This document shows, piece by piece, positions 8,271 through 22,396 of a stretch of 64,000 nucleotides of DNA. The stretch is taken from NCBI RefSeq assembly GCF_000026045.1, contig NC_007426.1:992001-1056000 (forward strand). Direction: 5' to 3'. Position 1 is the first letter of the stretch; every line of letters starts with the position of its first letter. The position numbers were made by a program, and so were the translations under genes. The DNA comes from Natronomonas pharaonis DSM 2160 (GTDB lineage: Archaea; Halobacteriota; Halobacteria; Halobacteriales; Haloarculaceae). The notes beneath the pieces are model-generated. The model did no database searches and was not told the DNA's origin. It saw nothing but the letters and a program-made list of their open reading frames with translations.

Positions 8271-11200
8271 GGTTGCGGCAGTTGACGGAACGCCCACCAT
8301 CGAAATTGAGGACGGTACTGATGAAACAGATGCGGTCGGCATTTCGGTTCCCGGCGATGATGTGACCATCCGAGATATCGAACTCGACGGCAGCGGCGGC
8401 AACGGTGACATCGACACCGGCATCAAGACGACCGCGCCCGACACTGTCGTCGAGGATGTGACTATCACAAACGCCGCCGACGGCATCAGCGTCGAGGGTG
8501 ACATCGCGCTAGATGGCAGCGACAGCCGAATCGAGGGGGCAACCGTCGAAAACGCCGACCGCGGTGTCGTGGTGACCGGCTCCGCTGACACTATCGAAGC
8601 CACCAGCATCGGCCTCACGGACGACGACGCTGTCGGTCTCGTGGTGCAGGACGGCGGCGGGATAGCGACCCTTGACGAGTTCTCGGTCAAACGGGACAGC
8701 GGGACCGGTGGAACAGGTATCGAACTCCACGGAAGCGACGGCATCGACGGCCACGGCGTGACCTTCGAGAACCTCGATACTGCGTTCGTCGTCGACGACG
8801 GTACGGCAGACGTCGCGCTCACGGGTGTCGATGCAAACCCTACAGCGACCGTTGAGTTCGGCGATGTCGCCCCGGCGGCAAACAGCATCGAAATCAGCCA
8901 CGATGACGGCCCACCCGTTACGGTCGGCGGCCGGGAGGCGACACTTGAACGCGACGACGACGCCCCGAACGACCCCGAAGACCTGTTCGGCATCGGTGCC
9001 GACCTCAGCCTCGAAAGCGACGGTGAGGACTCGGAACTCGACCTCACAATCAGTTACGACGGCCACGCCGCCGGCATCGTCGACGAGACGCTGGCGCTCT
9101 ACCGACACGACGACGGCAACGGTGACTGGACAGACGTCGGTGACTCGACTGTCGACACGGACGAGCGCGTCGTCGAGGCGACCGTCACCGACTTCTCGAC
9201 GTTCGAGGTCTACGGCGAAGGTGGGGTAATCGTCGAGGACGCGACGCTTCCGGACCGGACTGCGACCGGGGCGACGGTGAACGTTGAGGCGACAATCAAA
9301 AACCAGGGTGATTCCGAGCGGACCGGAACGGTCGAGTATCAGTTCGACGGCGATGGTGTCGACAATACCACGGTGTCGCTCGACAGCGAGGCGTCTACTG
9401 CCGTCGCCTTCGCCTACACTGTCCCCGACGATGTCGATGCCGGCGACACGTCCCACGGCATCGTCACCGAAGACGACGACACCCAGCGTGGCGATATCAC
9501 CGTCACCGACGAGGCCTTCTTCGAGGTGACTGACATCGATGCGCCGGCAAGCGTCGAGCCCGACAGCCAAATGACCGTCTCGGCGCTGGTGACGAACCAC
9601 GGCGAAACGGAAGGGGACCAAGACATCGAACTGCGCTTCGGGAGCGACCTCGAAGACAGCGACGATTACGAAACACTGGAAACAGAGAGTAAGGTCTCGC
9701 TCGACCCCGACGACGACTCTCGGGTTGAACTCACCGGTACCGTCCCCGATGATAACGGAAACGGTCTCAGCGACCTTGACCTCAGCGTTGGCGACGATGC
9801 CAAGGTTGGGGTGTTCTCCGATAACGATGACGACAGAACGACGACGCGCATTGCCGAAACAGTCCACACGATTTCCGGGACTGTAGAGGACAGTCAACTT
9901 GGCGAGACGCTCGAAGACATCGACATAGCGGCCGTTTCTGACGGCGATGACTTCGAAACGGCGACCGGCGAGGACGGCGAGTATGAACTCGCCGTCCCGG
10001 CCGATACGTACGACGTGACCGCTGCCGACGCCAGCGAGCGCTACGGCGCTGAAACCGAGGACAATGTCGACGCCTCCGACGGAGACGTCGCGGATGTCGA
10101 CTTCGACCTCCGGCTACGTGACGGCACCCTCGTCGGAACGGTCACCGACGCGGGCACCGGCGACGCGCTTGAGGGCGCGACCGTCGCCACGACCGCCGAC
10201 GGCGAGGACCGGGAGACAGAGACCGACGCCAACGGGGCGTACGAGCTGTCGCTGCCGCCCAGCGACTACGAAGGGGCGTACACGGTGACTGTCGACGCCG
10301 ATGGATTCGAAGAGCGGGCCATCGACACGGTCGACGGCGCGTCGATTGAAATCGAGCCGAACGAGGAGACAACGCTCGATGTCGCTCTCGATGCCGACCC
10401 CGGAACTGTCAGCGGAACCGTCCTTGACGACGAAACTGACGACCCAATCGAGAACGCGACGGTGACTGCTGACGGCGAATCGACAGCGACCGACGAGGCT
10501 GGCGACTACGAACTCACCGTCCCCCGCGGCGACCACGATATCACAGCGAGCGCGGCCGGCTACGCGGATGCTACGGAGACTGTGTCCGTCGGTCCCGGCG
10601 AAGACGTCTCCGGCGTCGACTTCCGGCTCGACCGGATACCGGTGCTTACTTTCGAGACAGTTACCGTCCCCGAGTCGGTTGAACAGGGCGGGACGCTCTC
10701 AGCCGACGTAACCGTCGAAAACGAGGGACTGGCTGCCGGTACGGCAACCATATCGCTCGATATCGATGCGCTCAACCTCAGCAACGAGGGTGACGTTGAC
10801 CTCGGTGCCGGCGAGAGCACCGACCGCTCCCTGTCGGTGTCGATACCCTCGGATGCCGACACCGGCGACTACGACGCGACGCTGTCGGTCGGCGACGAAA
10901 CCGAAACCCGGACTTTCGAAGTCGAAGCGGCAACGACCGGTAACGGCGGCGGTGGTGGCGGTGGTGGCGGTGGTGGCGGCGCAGTTGGCGGCGGTGGTGG
11001 CGGCGGTGGCGGCCCGTCAACGAGCATGTCCACGGCTATCGAAGACAGCGCGCCCGGGCAGCCGGGGATTACCATCCAGACTGGCCGCATCGACGACCTC
11101 GATTCGATAACGCTGTTCGATGAGACTGCCACGGGGAGCGTCCGCGTCAACGGCTACGGTGACCGTCTGCCACCCCGTTCGCCGTCGATGGGGACACAGC

Positions 11201-16470: not shown

Positions 16471-16968
16471 TCAGGTGTCGGCGAGTTCGATATCCAGCCG
16501 CTCTTCGAGTGCGCTGATGAGCGAGCCGCCGACGTTGGCGCGGGCGGCCCGGCCCTGCTCGACAGCGACGACATCGTCCTCGTCAGCGCCGACCTCGCGT
16601 GCGAGTTCGTCTATCTGTAGCCCTTCGGCCTGTCGGGCCTGCTCGACCAAGGTTCCGTAGTCGCTGACGAGATACGGCAGGGGGTCTTCTTCGTATTCGG
16701 TGTCTTCCTGCCAGTCGGTGTCGACCTTGCGGGCGTCGTCCAGCCGGGCGACGTTCTGTGCCGCTTTCTTGCGGCGCTTGCGTTCCTGTGTTCGGTCCTC
16801 GGTGTCGGTCTGGCCGGCGTCGCCGTCGCCGTGCTTTAGGCACTGGTCGCAGACGTTGAGCTCGGCTCCGGCAACGGTCGCCGTCTCAAGCGACCGGTCT
16901 TCGGCCCCACAGAGTTCGCAGGCACCGCTTTCGTCGCCGCCGACGCCGCCGGTCGAATACTTCGCCAT
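16471..16968 (-). CDS. MBF1-like protein: N-terminal zinc ribbon plus XRE-type HTH
   Basis: This 165-residue protein has an N-terminal two-CxxC zinc ribbon (CELCGAED ... CDQCLK), a basic segment RKRRKKAAQN, and a C-terminal XRE helix-turn-helix (YGTLVEQARQAEGLQIDELA). The architecture is that of archaeal multiprotein bridging factor 1, which bridges TBP/TFE or contacts the ribosome. A second protein of the same layout (47186-47731) matches classical MBF1 better, so this is a divergent paralogue. Start 16968 was chosen over an upstream Met because MAKYS leads into the ribbon. Confidence 0.75.
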   Translation of the reverse strand: MAKYSTGGVGGDESGACELCGAEDRSLETATVAGAELNVCDQCLKHGDGDAGQTDTEDRTQERKRRKKAAQNVARLDDARKVDTDWQEDTEYEEDPLPYLVSDYGTLVEQARQAEGLQIDELAREVGADEDDVVAVEQGRAARANVGGSLISALEERLDIELADT

Positions 16969-17154
16969 ACCAGCCACGTCTTCGGGAACACACTTCAACT
17001 TCGCGCTCTGTCGGCTCTCCGGTTGCGCGACCGGCAGCGACCGCCTGTCGCCCCGCCCGCTGTCGAAACCGTGCGAGGGGTTGCCGGCCCGGGCCGAAAG
17101 GAAAGCCCTTTTATTGTGCCCATTGCTACAGGAGAGTGCAGACAGATACGACGT

Positions 17155-17239
17155 GCGTGGGTAGCCAAGCTAGGCCAACGGCGCAGCGTTGAGGGCGCTG
17201 TCCTGTAGAGGTCCGCCGGTTCAAATCCGGTCCCACGCA
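17155..17239 (+). tRNA. tRNA-Leu, anticodon GAG
   Basis: The cloverleaf closes cleanly: acceptor GCGTGGG with CCCACGC, D stem GCC/GGC, anticodon stem CAGCG/CGCTG around loop TTGAGGG (anticodon GAG, reading CUC/CUU), a long variable arm TCCTGTAGAGGTCC as in class II tRNAs, T arm GCCGG-TTCAAAT-CCGGT, and discriminator A. No intron and no encoded CCA (CTG follows). A TATA-like CTTTTATT lies about 45 bases upstream, consistent with a short 5' leader. Confidence 0.95.
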
Positions 17240-17401
17240 CTGCTGGCGGCCCACAGCCGCCCACACAGTGCGGGTGCTCGAAGACAGCACCCACGCAAAC
17301 TTCTCACCGACGCTTCACCGAACAACAGCGGTGCTACCGCTTGCTGGTACTGGCGTCGAGAATGTTGATACGTGACAGATAGCGTGTTCCTATCCGCATG
17401 G

Positions 17402-17451
17402 TTTAGGCTTACCTAAAATATTTACCCTCGGCCGCTTTAGGCCAACCTAAA
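17402..17451 (+). promoter_or_regulatory. Promoter with two DtxR/IdeR-type operator palindromes flanking the TATA box
   Basis: TTTAGGCTTACCTAAA (17402-17417) and TTTAGGCCAACCTAAA (17436-17451) are each perfect 6-4-6 inverted repeats. They carry the TTAGG/CCTAA half-sites of DtxR-family metal-dependent repressors. The AT-rich AAAATATTTA between them (17415-17424) is a good TATA box, 27-35 bases before the ATG at 17451, so the message is probably leaderless. Operator 2 covers the expected transcription start and the A of the start codon; operator 1 abuts the TATA. Centres are 34 bases apart. Confidence 0.8.
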
Positions 17452-17753
17452 TGAACGAACGAATGCTCCGCGCCCTCCGGCGGCACATTGAATCACTGGC
17501 CGACCCCGACGGGACCTACGTTGTTTGCTCGCGAACGGGCGAGCGGCCGGTTCCGGCCGATGGACTCCGGTTTCGGGACTGTCTGACCGCCCGCGAGGCT
17601 GCCCGACTCGCAGCACAGTATCGCACTCGCCTGCGGCGGTACGACCGTCGGCTGCCACGGTACGACCTCACCGTGCGGCAGTCCCCCGGTGACAGCCCGC
17701 TGGCGACGACCGACAGCGATGCCGACCGACCTGCAGTGACGACGAAGGCCTAA
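17451..17753 (+). CDS. Conserved haloarchaeal protein of unknown function, predicted metal-regulated
   Basis: The 100-residue soluble protein is Arg-rich. N-terminal helix MLRALRRHIESLAD is followed by a compact segment TYVVCSRTGERPVPADG and a Tyr/Arg-rich helix (RTRLRRYDRRLPRYDL). The single Cys is at residue ~26. I do not recognise a functional family. Its start codon lies at the edge of a DtxR-type operator and the next gene begins two bases after its stop, so both probably respond to iron or manganese. Confidence 0.65.
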   Translation: MNERMLRALRRHIESLADPDGTYVVCSRTGERPVPADGLRFRDCLTAREAARLAAQYRTRLRRYDRRLPRYDLTVRQSPGDSPLATTDSDADRPAVTTKA

Positions 17754-17754
17754 C

Positions 17755-18549
17755 ATGGCACTCACAAACCACCTCGACCGGGCCACCGGCCGCGTTGCCG
17801 ACGAGCAGGACGTGATTGCCGACGAGCGGCGCGCCTACGAGCGGTTTCGAACGACTGTCGAGACGACGGCGACTGACGCCCACTCCACGACATCGGCGGC
17901 GTCCACCGGCGCTGGAGCCGCAGCCGTCGGTCTCCAACGCCGTAGCCGACCGGACCGCGGCTGTAGCGAAATCAGAGCGGCCTTTGCCGAGACGGTTCGA
18001 CCCTACAGCACGGACGACATCGACCGCGAGGAGTCGGTCATCGAGACGCTCGGTGCGGAACTCGGTGACTCTATCGCCGCCGCGCTGTCCCCGGAGACGA
18101 CACACGAGTTCACGCCGCAGCTCAAGACCGCGATTCTCGCCGCCGTTGATGACCGCCACGCTGAGCTTGCGGTAATGGAACGGGCGCTGACGCGGGAGGC
18201 CGAGTCGCTCCAGACTGCGGTCGAGGCCTACGACGACATCACCGACCGTTTGCTGGAGCGCAACGAGACATCGCTTTTCGAGTTCGGCTTTCCCGGACTG
18301 CGACAGCGCCACGAGGCGCTGGCCGCAGACCGCGAGACCTGCGAGCGGCTGCTCGAGCGCCGCCAAGAACTGTTGGCGAGTACGACCAGCCGCGGCGGTG
18401 ATGCCGGCATCAACCACCGGACGCTTGTCCGATATCTCTATCAGTCACAGCCGGCCACCTATCCGGCGCTTTCGACGCTCGTTCAACTCGATTCGACGCT
18501 GGCAGACTGCCAGCGGACGCTCCGGGACCACCTCACCCGGCGGGTCTGA
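17755..18549 (+). CDS. Conserved haloarchaeal helical protein of unknown function, second gene of the metal-regulated operon
   Basis: The 264-residue protein is almost wholly helical, with long Glu/Arg-rich amphipathic stretches, e.g. EQDVIADERRAYERF and RHEALAADRETCERLLERRQ. No signal peptide, membrane helix or catalytic motif is visible. It starts two bases after the preceding stop, so it is coregulated from the double DtxR-box promoter at 17402. A coiled-coil or transducer-like shape is possible, but function is not recognised. Confidence 0.65.
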   Translation: MALTNHLDRATGRVADEQDVIADERRAYERFRTTVETTATDAHSTTSAASTGAGAAAVGLQRRSRPDRGCSEIRAAFAETVRPYSTDDIDREESVIETLGAELGDSIAAALSPETTHEFTPQLKTAILAAVDDRHAELAVMERALTREAESLQTAVEAYDDITDRLLERNETSLFEFGFPGLRQRHEALAADRETCERLLERRQELLASTTSRGGDAGINHRTLVRYLYQSQPATYPALSTLVQLDSTLADCQRTLRDHLTRRV

Positions 18550-18597
18550 GCCAGCCGTCCCAAAGAGCCATTTGGTCCCCGGCCGTCGGCTCTATCT

Positions 18598-19092
18598 ATG
18601 GGTGAATTTGACACACCGACGACGGGCGAAGCGACCGAAGCGGCGGCGTTCGAGTTCCTCGATACGCTCTCGTATGTCCGCATCGACGGCGACGCGACCG
18701 ACGGCCAGCGGGCCGTCGTCGAGATGCGGCTCCGCGAGGGCCATGCGCCGCCGATGCACATCCACCGGGAGGCCACCGAGACGATTCACGTCCTTGATGG
18801 CGAAATCGACGTTCACACGCCGGATTCGGTCACATCGCTCGATACGGGTGCGTCAGCAGTGTTGCCCAACGGCGAGCCACACAGCCTCCACGCCGTCACA
18901 CAGGCGACGATTCTCGCTTCGACATCGCCGGCCGGCTTCGAGCAGTTTATCGAGGCCGTCGGCAAGCCGGCCGCGACGGAGACTGTCCCGACGACGCCGC
19001 CGTCCGAGGACGCCATCGGACGGGTGTCAGAGCTCGCACCGGCACACGATATCGAAATCGTCGGCCCGCCGCCGGTCGAGCCACCGGAGTAA
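18598..19092 (+). CDS. Cupin-domain protein
   Basis: This 164-residue protein has one cupin barrel at ~35-120. Motif 1 (APPMHIHREATETIHVLDGE) supplies the usual His-His-Glu/His metal ligands and motif 2 (LPNGEPHSLHA) adds another His. The C-terminal 50 residues are Pro/Glu-rich. Many cupins are small metalloenzymes or sensors; the substrate is unknown. It starts 48 bases after the metal-regulated operon, so readthrough is possible but not shown. Confidence 0.75.
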   Translation: MGEFDTPTTGEATEAAAFEFLDTLSYVRIDGDATDGQRAVVEMRLREGHAPPMHIHREATETIHVLDGEIDVHTPDSVTSLDTGASAVLPNGEPHSLHAVTQATILASTSPAGFEQFIEAVGKPAATETVPTTPPSEDAIGRVSELAPAHDIEIVGPPPVEPPE

Positions 19093-19105
19093 GCAGGCAT
19101 CGCCG

Positions 19106-19708
19106 TCAGTCCCGCTGTGCGTGTCCCGCTGTGCCGGCACCGCCGGCACCGCCCAGCAGGGCATCGACGACCCGCCGAAGCAGTCGCCCGACAACGAAGG
19201 CGGCGACGGCTATCGGGAGGCCGAACCAGACAGCGACGCCGAGGCCGTCGCCAACCGCCTGCGGCAACGAGACGACCTGTGTCTGTCCCAACACCGCATA
19301 CTGGGTTCCGTAGGTGGTCACACCGGCACCGAACAGCGGCCCACCGACAAGCGCCAGCGTCGGCAGGAGGCCCGCACCAAGCGCGGCGGCGACGGCGCCC
19401 ACCGCCAGCAGGCCGCCGGCCGCGATAAACAGCGGCGGATGCGGCGATTCGCCGGTCCACGTTTCGACGACACGCTCGGCTAGTACTGCGGTCCCAACCG
19501 TCGTCTGGATGAATGCGGCGCTGGCGACGGCCAAAAGAAGGCCCGAAAGCACCGCGACAAGCGACATCGGCCGACGGCCGAACAGGGCGGTTTTGAATGG
19601 GCCACAGAGCCACGCGCGAGCGGCGTCGACAACGCGGCGGCCAGCGGTCGAGAGCAGCACACACAGCCGAAACAGTCCCGATTCGGCTCGGTCTGGTATG
19701 GAGGGCAT
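19106..19708 (-). CDS. Predicted multi-pass membrane protein, unknown function
   Basis: About 200 residues with four to five hydrophobic helices (e.g. PMSLVAVLSGLLLAVASAAF, LFIAAGGLLAVGAVAAALG, FGLPIAVAAFVVGRLL). A conserved loop TYGTQYAVLGQTQV and a Gly-rich tail are visible. No family recognised. ATG 19708 follows an in-frame GTG at 19711. It is convergent with the cupin gene and downstream of the ribbon-helix-helix gene on its own strand. Confidence 0.6.
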   Translation of the reverse strand: MPSIPDRAESGLFRLCVLLSTAGRRVVDAARAWLCGPFKTALFGRRPMSLVAVLSGLLLAVASAAFIQTTVGTAVLAERVVETWTGESPHPPLFIAAGGLLAVGAVAAALGAGLLPTLALVGGPLFGAGVTTYGTQYAVLGQTQVVSLPQAVGDGLGVAVWFGLPIAVAAFVVGRLLRRVVDALLGGAGGAGTAGHAQRD

Positions 19709-20475: not shown

Positions 20476-21123
20476 ATGTTCGAAACACTAACAGAAACGA
20501 AGGAACGCGGTCAGGTTGGAATCGGTACCCTGATCGTTTTCATCGCGCTGGTCCTTGTGGCGGCCATCGCGGCAGGGGTGCTTATCAACACCGCCGGGTT
20601 CCTCCAAACGCAAGCACAGGCAACCGGAGAAGAAAGTACAGAACAGGTCTCAACCAACCTCGTCTACCTCAGCACCACCGGTGAAGTTGTGGAAGATGGT
20701 ACTGGCAGCCTCGTTGGAATCGACCAGTTCGAAACGACGGTACAGTTGGGTCCGGGTTCGAGTGCGATTGACCTGAACGACACGACAATCTCGGTCTTCA
20801 CTGACGACGGTGAATCCGAGGAGTTCGATGGGGTTGATGAGGGTGACTCCCTCACTGATGATGGAATTGAATTCGATGACACCGACCGTGACTCATCGGT
20901 ACTCAGCACTGACGCAACTGATGACGATGCAACCGCGACCATCGTGTTCGGCCTGGATGATGCAAGCGATGGAATCAACCCTGAGGACGACCGGTTTGAC
21001 GAAGGCACGACGGTTGATATTGTGATAACGACGGCTGAGGGGACGCAGGCTGAAAACAGCTTCATCATTGAAGATCCGCTTGACCCGCAGCTTGATGACG
21101 AGGACGAGATCCGGCTTGATTAG
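20476..21123 (+). CDS. flgA1: Archaellin (archaeal flagellin) 1
   Basis: This 215-residue prearchaellin has a class III signal peptide cut after Gly in [13 protein letters not shown], then the hydrophobic assembly helix (~14-35). The conserved [20 protein letters not shown] segment and an acidic beta-rich outer domain follow, ending EIRLD. An N-glycosylation sequon NDT is present. It forms the archaellum filament after processing by the prepilin peptidase PibD/ArlK (not in this window). Eight bases separate its stop from the next archaellin. Confidence 0.95.
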
Positions 21124-21131
21124 ATAAGACA

Positions 21132-21755
21132 ATGTTTGAACAATTCACAGAGAGTGAGGAGCGCGGTCAGGTTGGCATTGGTACCCTGATTGTGTTCATC
21201 GCGCTGGTCCTCGTGGCGGCCATCGCGGCAGGGGTGCTTATCAACACCGCCGGGTTCCTCCAAACGCAAGCACAGGCAACCGGAGAAGAAAGCACAGAAC
21301 AGGTCTCAACCAACCTCGTCTTCCTCAGCACCACCGGCACTGTCTCCGACGCTGAAGATGGAATTGACTCGTTCAATACGACGGTGCAGTTGGGTCCAGG
21401 TTCGAGTGCGATTGACCTGAACGACACGACAATCTCGGTGTTCACCGACGATGGCCAATCGCAAGAGTTCAGTGGGGTTGATGAAGACACTGACAACAAC
21501 GACGGCGGAATCGAATTCGAAGATGACAGCCGTGATTCGTCGGTGTTGAGTACGGACTCCACTGATGACGACGCAACCGCAACCATCGAGTTCGATATAG
21601 GCGATGCTAATGAACTGAGTGAGCCTTTCGAAGAGGGGACGACGGTTGATATTGTGATTACGACGTCGGAGGGCACACAGGCAGAAAACAGCTTCATCAT
21701 CGAAGACCCGCTTGACCCACAGCTTGAGGGCGGCGACGAAATCCGGCTTGATTAG
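21132..21755 (+). CDS. flgA2: Archaellin 2
   Basis: At 207 residues this paralogue has the same signal peptide and N-terminal helix as its neighbours. It differs in the middle loop ([31 protein letters not shown]), which is the surface-exposed part. Sequons NTT and NDT are visible. Its first ~215 bases differ from archaellin 3 at only about three positions. The same TAG-ATAAGACA-ATG junction precedes it and archaellin 3. Confidence 0.95.
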
Positions 21756-21763
21756 ATAAGACA

Positions 21764-22396
21764 ATGTTTGAGCAATTCACAGAGAGTGAGGAGCGCGGTC
21801 AGGTTGGTATTGGTACCCTGATTGTGTTCATCGCGCTGGTCCTCGTGGCGGCCATCGCGGCAGGGGTGCTTATCAACACCGCCGGGTTCCTCCAAACGCA
21901 AGCACAGGCAACCGGAGAAGAAAGCACAGAACAGGTCTCAACCAACCTCGTCTACCTCAGCACCACCGGCACTGTCTCCAATAGTGAAGATGGAATTAAC
22001 CAGTTTGAGACGACGGTACAGTTGGGTCCGGGTTCGAGTGCGATTGACCTGAACGACACGACAATCTCGGTCTTCACTGACGACGGTGAATCCGAGGAGT
22101 TTGACAGCCTTGCGGAAGACGGAATCGAACTTGAGGACCGGTCTGATGACGAGGCAGTTCTCAGTACCGCCTCCAGTGATGACGATGCAACCGCGACCAT
22201 CGTGTTCGACCTGACTGATGGCGACGGGATCGACCCTGAAGACGGCCAATTTGACGAAGGGACAACGGTTGATATTGTGATTACGACGGCAGAGGGAACA
22301 CAGGCAGAAAACAGCTTCATCATCGAAGACCCCCTCGACCCACAGCTTGATGGCAACACCGACCCCGACCAGGCCGACGAAATCCGCCTCGGCTAA
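21764..22396 (+). CDS. flgA3: Archaellin 3
   Basis: This 210-residue archaellin has the N-terminal region of archaellin 2 and a variable segment ([25 protein letters not shown]) closer in places to archaellin 1. The C-terminus extends to [19 protein letters not shown]. It is the last gene of the tandem; a T-rich stretch lies just after the stop. Whether it is a major or minor filament subunit cannot be told from sequence. Confidence 0.95.

Follow-up and report, generated by a model that had tools for sequence, protein, structure and literature searches.

Paired DtxR-type palindromes around the promoter of a haloarchaeal DUF7552-DUF7260 operon point to control by iron

A two-gene operon of Natronomonas pharaonis, encoding a DUF7552 and a DUF7260 protein, is probably a target of an iron-sensing repressor of the DtxR/IdeR type, and its products would be accessory proteins of iron handling. 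This reading is built from sequence comparison: two perfect palindromes lie around the TATA box of the operon, the same sites are found at two other loci of the genome, and the arrangement recurs in many haloarchaeal genera. The operon lies in a window of 64,000 nucleotides (C1:992001-1056000), by which we mean the whole stretch of DNA that was analysed; positions refer to this window unless a contig or locus is named. The genome searched comprises 2,749,696 bases, including contigs of 2,595,221 and 130,989 bases.

Results

Architecture of the promoter

The first palindrome, TTTAGGCTTACCTAAA (TTTAGG-CTTA-CCTAAA, positions 17402 to 17417), is a putative operator that precedes the TATA box, on its BRE side, a position that is kept in relatives. 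The second putative operator, TTTAGGCCAACCTAAA (TTTAGG-CCAA-CCTAAA, positions 17436 to 17451), covers the presumed transcription start, and its last base doubles as the A of the ORF1 start codon at 17451. Both are perfect 6-4-6 palindromes, neither being assigned to a strand, and their centres (17409.5 and 17443.5) are 34 bp apart, exactly as the original prediction had it. Its claim that they bracket the TATA box held as well: the TATA-like sequence AATATTTA (positions 17417 to 17424, + strand), recognized from the sequence and by comparison with the promoters of relatives, sits between the palindromes, about 27-34 bp 5' of the start codon. From this spacing, transcription of the operon would start at a leaderless promoter. 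Overlap with the ATG, or abutment to it, by the second operator was also observed in relatives. With one palindrome on the BRE side of the TATA box and the other over the start, the arrangement fits repression.

The two proteins

ORF1 (positions 17451 to 17753, + strand) encodes 100 aa and is followed, after a gap of 1 nt, by ORF2 (positions 17755 to 18549, + strand), which encodes 264 aa. The choice of the ATG at 17451 is supported by the alignment, in which the proteins of relatives begin at the same column. Both proteins had been described as lacking a recognised function, which was right, with the addition that they belong to named Pfam families: in profile searches ORF1 matched DUF7552 (PF24422) with 106 bits (cut-off 27) and ORF2 matched DUF7260 (PF23921) with 230.9 bits, over the cut-off. 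NCBIfam and PADLOC gave no match for either of them. In most relatives the counterpart of ORF1 has about 300 aa and consists of DUF7552 followed by DUF7551; Haloferax volcanii, for instance, encodes DUF7552, DUF7551 and DUF7260. ORF1 is not such a fusion, DUF7551 being absent from the whole genome, and part of the ancestral function may thus be gone. ORFs with DUF7552 only are also present 5' of DUF7260 in Halolamina, Halococcus, Halopenitus, Natribaculum and one Halorubrum; in another Natronomonas (locus L117), the paired operators with their ATG overlap are kept, and a 33-codon ORF stands instead of DUF7552 and is followed by DUF7260. These variants indicate that DUF7260 is the part most often retained.

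In the predicted model (mean pLDDT 79), DUF7260 forms a long bundle of helices. A fold search with this model returned generic helical bundles only (spectrin repeats, designed bundles), with Z scores of up to 10 that are in the chance range for bundles. When the DUF7552-DUF7551 proteins of relatives were used, the H-NOX/TRAPP/XylR-N-like class came out on top at low Z scores of 5.5-6.8, which profile comparison did not support. A PDB sequence search gave no significant match for DUF7260 or DUF7552-DUF7551, and in all these searches no fold or sequence match indicated a biochemical function. For the predicted fold of DUF7551 (L060:7979-8890, residues 112-289), H-NOX, TRAPP and MopR-type ligand-binding domains ranked first, likewise at low Z scores and with no backing from profiles.

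As to the surroundings, a tRNA-Leu (GAG) called by ARAGORN lies just 5' of the operon (positions 17155 to 17240); it is below the Rfam gathering score, and an Rfam search of positions 16800 to 19300 gave no match. The cupin gene at positions 18598 to 19092 was considered as a third member of the operon and rejected, since no relative of this cupin adjoins DUF7552 or DUF7260 elsewhere. Positions 20476 to 22396 hold a tandem array of three closely similar, archaellin-like genes (215, 207 and 210 aa) whose N-terminal halves are almost identical.

Sites elsewhere in the genome

Base composition predicts 0.034 occurrences of the 16-mer per genome; three were observed in the 2.75-Mb genome, two of them at this operon. 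The looser pattern TTWGG-N4-CCWAA was found 8 times compared with a composition-only expectation of about 4 per genome, so that its clustering at iron loci is telling and not the number of sites. All 8 perfect sites are confined to three loci. Besides the two of the present operon, three lie at locus L015, 5' of a gene for an iron-type extracellular solute-binding protein that is followed by a two-domain permease gene, and two of these three are also 34 bp apart. The remaining three form one cluster and are located 5' of an ABC ATPase gene with a TOBE domain, a DUF7547 gene and dpsA (ferritin-like). The original prediction had proposed to define the regulon by a genome scan and had staked its case on enrichment of the palindrome near other iron genes; the scan delimits a putative regulon of these three loci, and the enrichment was found. 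Sites of the same pattern occur at other metal uptake and storage genes, as in a DtxR/IdeR-type regulon. The DUF7547 gene (L014:9964-10647) shares one operator, at about 10698-10713, with a divergent 46-aa ORF, and DUF7547 is probably a further iron-regulated family.

Only perfect sites were used in the pattern searches that define the regulon, since sites with one or two mismatches were not above the reversed control in this genome and are therefore at background level. The pattern TTAGG-N6-CCTAA, which has the wrong spacer, gave no matches.

Conservation across haloarchaea

All 37 genomes examined in the family contain matches to the palindrome, and none contains the backwards-read control pattern. 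In a set of 40 wide DUF7552 loci, drawn from many haloarchaeal genera, nearly all have perfect sites. With a DUF7260 alignment, we collected 65 named haloarchaeal loci of the iron-linked DUF7260 type (555 kb in total). Sites were present in 60 of them; they numbered 124, and the reversed pattern gave 0. Pairs 31-37 bp apart occurred at 40 of the 65 loci. The spacings observed were 31 (1), 34 (3), 35 (9), 36 (28) and 37 bp (2), that is, 34-37 bp for all pairs but one. The spacer within a palindrome is strict: exact TTAGG/CCTAA half-sites were separated by 4 nucleotides in 114 of 114 cases and by no other spacer from 0 to 15. The order palindrome-TATA-palindrome-ATG, closely like that of the present operon, is common to Halopiger, Halobiforma, Salinadaptatus, Halopenitus, Natronolimnohabitans and another Natronomonas. 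Elsewhere, the pair is further 5' of the gene, or 5' of a siderophore-binding-protein gene heading a longer cluster. Paired operators of the same kind also precede large proteins, near position 4681 of L065 and at L083:5507-7939; the latter protein carries DUF5059 and a plastocyanin-like domain, and its family is probably iron-regulated too.

The DUF7260 protein of the window is 35-46% identical to operator-linked relatives, compared with about 26-32% between the two DUF7260 types, and is thus of the iron-linked type. The second-type paralogues in the genus (about 26-32% identical) have no perfect sites, which speaks for a link of the site to the iron-linked type, as opposed to DUF7260 genes at large. 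A different common promoter sequence, around CCAATTATAACcggytat, is present 5' of the second-type genes of L101, L102, L104-L108 and L115, hinting at another regulon in Natronomonas.

These data bear on the simplest objection, that the palindromes arose by chance in an AT-rich promoter. In such promoters a genome-wide expectation does understate the local chance of a match; however, the same pair stands at the same positions in many genera, control patterns gave nothing and a single spacer is permitted. For practical purposes, conservation rules out the chance reading, to which we attach a negligible probability.

Gene neighbourhoods

An iron-linked gene of at least one of the listed types was present within 4 kb at 34 of the 65 loci, while at 31 no recognised iron neighbour was found within that distance. 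The types were siderophore-type binding protein (17 loci), FecE-like ATPase (9), FecCD permease (6), thioredoxin-reductase-like FAD oxidoreductase (12), small DtxR-like regulator (20) and iron permease (1), the control for these counts being a small one of six window segments, which gave no matches. NifU-like genes were found at 10 of the 65 loci. In Halobellus limi, the gene row consists of an FAD oxidoreductase, an iron permease, an ATPase, two binding proteins, an FAD protein, DUF7552-DUF7551 and DUF7260. The Halostagnicola larsenii locus contains binding proteins, FAD oxidoreductases, DUF7260, a metal-dependent regulator and dpsA, and in Halobacterium hubeiense the DUF7552/DUF7260 pair is divergent from a siderophore cluster.

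Candidate regulators

The three strongest PF01325 matches of the genome are at C1:1386698, C1:726168 and C1:2311616. The proteins at C1:1386698 and C1:2311616 have PF01325, PF02742 and FeoA domains, and both keep the motifs H-x3-E and H-x3-D-x2-E-H, in which Asp stands in place of the Cys of DtxR; we take these residues to be the DtxR metal ligands. The genome thus encodes the kind of regulator, with PF01325, PF02742 and metal-binding residues, that a DtxR/IdeR-type regulon calls for. In the 145-aa protein at 726168, the metal-site residues are not all kept. The C1:1386698 protein (219-222 aa) resembles IdeR, SloR/ScaR and DtxR of known structure, its PDB relatives also including MntR, and appears to be the best candidate for the repressor of the operon.

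Small DtxR-like genes (about 130 aa) whose metal-binding residues are replaced were observed directly 3' of DUF7260 at the 20 loci counted above, for example at L059:9048-9446, L053:5800-6219, L065:9336-9716, L186:8730-9140 and L187:6570-6974. Such a gene next to DUF7260 is annotated in Haloferax larsenii and Halostagnicola. The encoded proteins may be metal-blind regulators.

Discussion

In our proposal, a metal-dependent repressor of the DtxR/IdeR type, most likely one sensing Fe2+, uses both palindromes as operators. Iron-loaded dimers bound to them, on either side of the TATA box, would bar TBP/TFB from the leaderless promoter and block its start site; iron shortage would free the promoter, and the operon would be induced in parallel with the iron-type ABC transporter and dpsA. 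The near-constant spacing of 34-37 bp with the TATA box in the middle fits such dual-site blocking and is by itself no proof that the dimers cooperate. Judged on its promoter, the operon is most likely part of the response to iron shortage. An undescribed iron- or manganese-response module had been predicted; the regulation does appear to be iron-linked, with sites at iron loci, and of the two metals iron is the better supported, from the neighbours. As for the products, the role that we consider most likely for DUF7552 and the helical DUF7260 is that of cytosolic accessory proteins of ferric-siderophore or iron uptake, with DUF7260 as the retained core. The DUF7260 bundle has no telling structural match, so that this functional step is taken from the gene neighbourhood only, and we put the chances of an accessory role at about even.

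The main rival accepts the same operator control and sees in DUF7260 not an uptake accessory but a co-regulator that tunes the iron response together with the small DtxR-like protein. The 20 loci at which such a gene directly follows DUF7260 speak for it, as does the loss of the metal ligands, unlike in both full-length DtxR proteins of the genome. However, no DtxR gene adjoins DUF7260 in the window genome, the pairing is absent at most loci, and the DUF7260 searches gave no fold hint of a regulator; we regard this reading as rather unlikely, though deserving of attention. An extension of it would have DUF7260, with either the DUF7552-DUF7551 protein or the metal-blind small DtxR paralogue, form an archaeal sensing or anti-repressor module, so far undescribed, through which the status of ferric siderophores or haem would feed into the iron regulon; DUF7551 would serve as its ligand-binding domain, with a fold of the H-NOX/TRAPP class, and the window genome would keep a reduced version. 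This is a speculation that we hold to be improbable.

Manganese instead of iron as the signal, through a repressor of the SirR/MntR type, is equally improbable in our view. The DtxR-family proteins found here do have Asp, and not the Cys of DtxR, in their primary metal site, MntR and SloR/ScaR are among the PDB relatives, and the SirR of Halobacterium has been reported to be Mn-dependent (PMC3600143), but the sites stand at ferric/siderophore-type transporters, FAD oxidoreductases, NifU and dpsA, and no Mn transporter was found beside sites in the neighbourhoods examined. Still less probable, and in our opinion very unlikely, is that the palindromes serve an unrelated transcription factor, or activate instead of repressing. 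The DtxR-type factor is a candidate taken from sequence comparison, and a dual action of the Corynebacterium glutamicum DtxR is reported (PMC1382209); against this, the half-sites correspond to those of DtxR boxes, with a perfect TTWGGN4CCWAA at the beginning of the irp1 box TTAGGTTAGCCAAACCTTT, and positions over TATA/BRE and the start fit repression.

If iron-dependent repression is the correct reading, three uncharacterised haloarchaeal families (DUF7552, DUF7551 and DUF7260) are tied to iron starvation by a conserved and testable promoter signature. TTAGG-N4-CCTAA, a clean haloarchaeal operator that often comes in pairs spaced about 35 bp around the TATA box, would be a tool for defining iron regulons in halophilic archaea, and the DtxR-like proteins without metal ligands that are encoded beside DUF7260 provide a smaller second lead. 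No mention of DUF7260, DUF7551 or DUF7552 was found in the literature searched, within which the link of the three families to iron looks undescribed; the operon may already be listed in the primary haloarchaeal regulon papers.

DtxR-family iron regulons are known in haloarchaea, with Idr1, Idr2 and SirR in Halobacterium and Idr, SirR and TroR in Haloferax volcanii, and the siderophore genes of Haloferax are iron-regulated, according to PMC11349517 (citing PMC7407949 for the latter). The present case resembles these regulons in the regulator family and in the kinds of target (iron uptake, siderophore transport, iron storage), so that the operon looks like a member of an already known regulon type, the link of its families to iron being the part that looks new. 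It shares gene order and operators with the DUF7552-DUF7551/DUF7260 pair of haloarchaeal siderophore clusters, whereas in the window ORF1 is DUF7552 alone and the pair lies apart from any transporter genes. The corynebacterial DtxR/IdeR box has similar TTAGG...CCTAA half-sites but is 19 bp long with its outer half-sites 9 apart, and no case with a spacer of 9, as in this canonical box, was found here; the haloarchaeal unit is 14-16 bp long with a spacer of strictly 4, and is often paired at 34-36 bp. Since the irp1 box begins with a perfect 14-bp match to TTWGGN4CCWAA (PMC524172), the haloarchaeal operator resembles a shortened version of the corynebacterial one.
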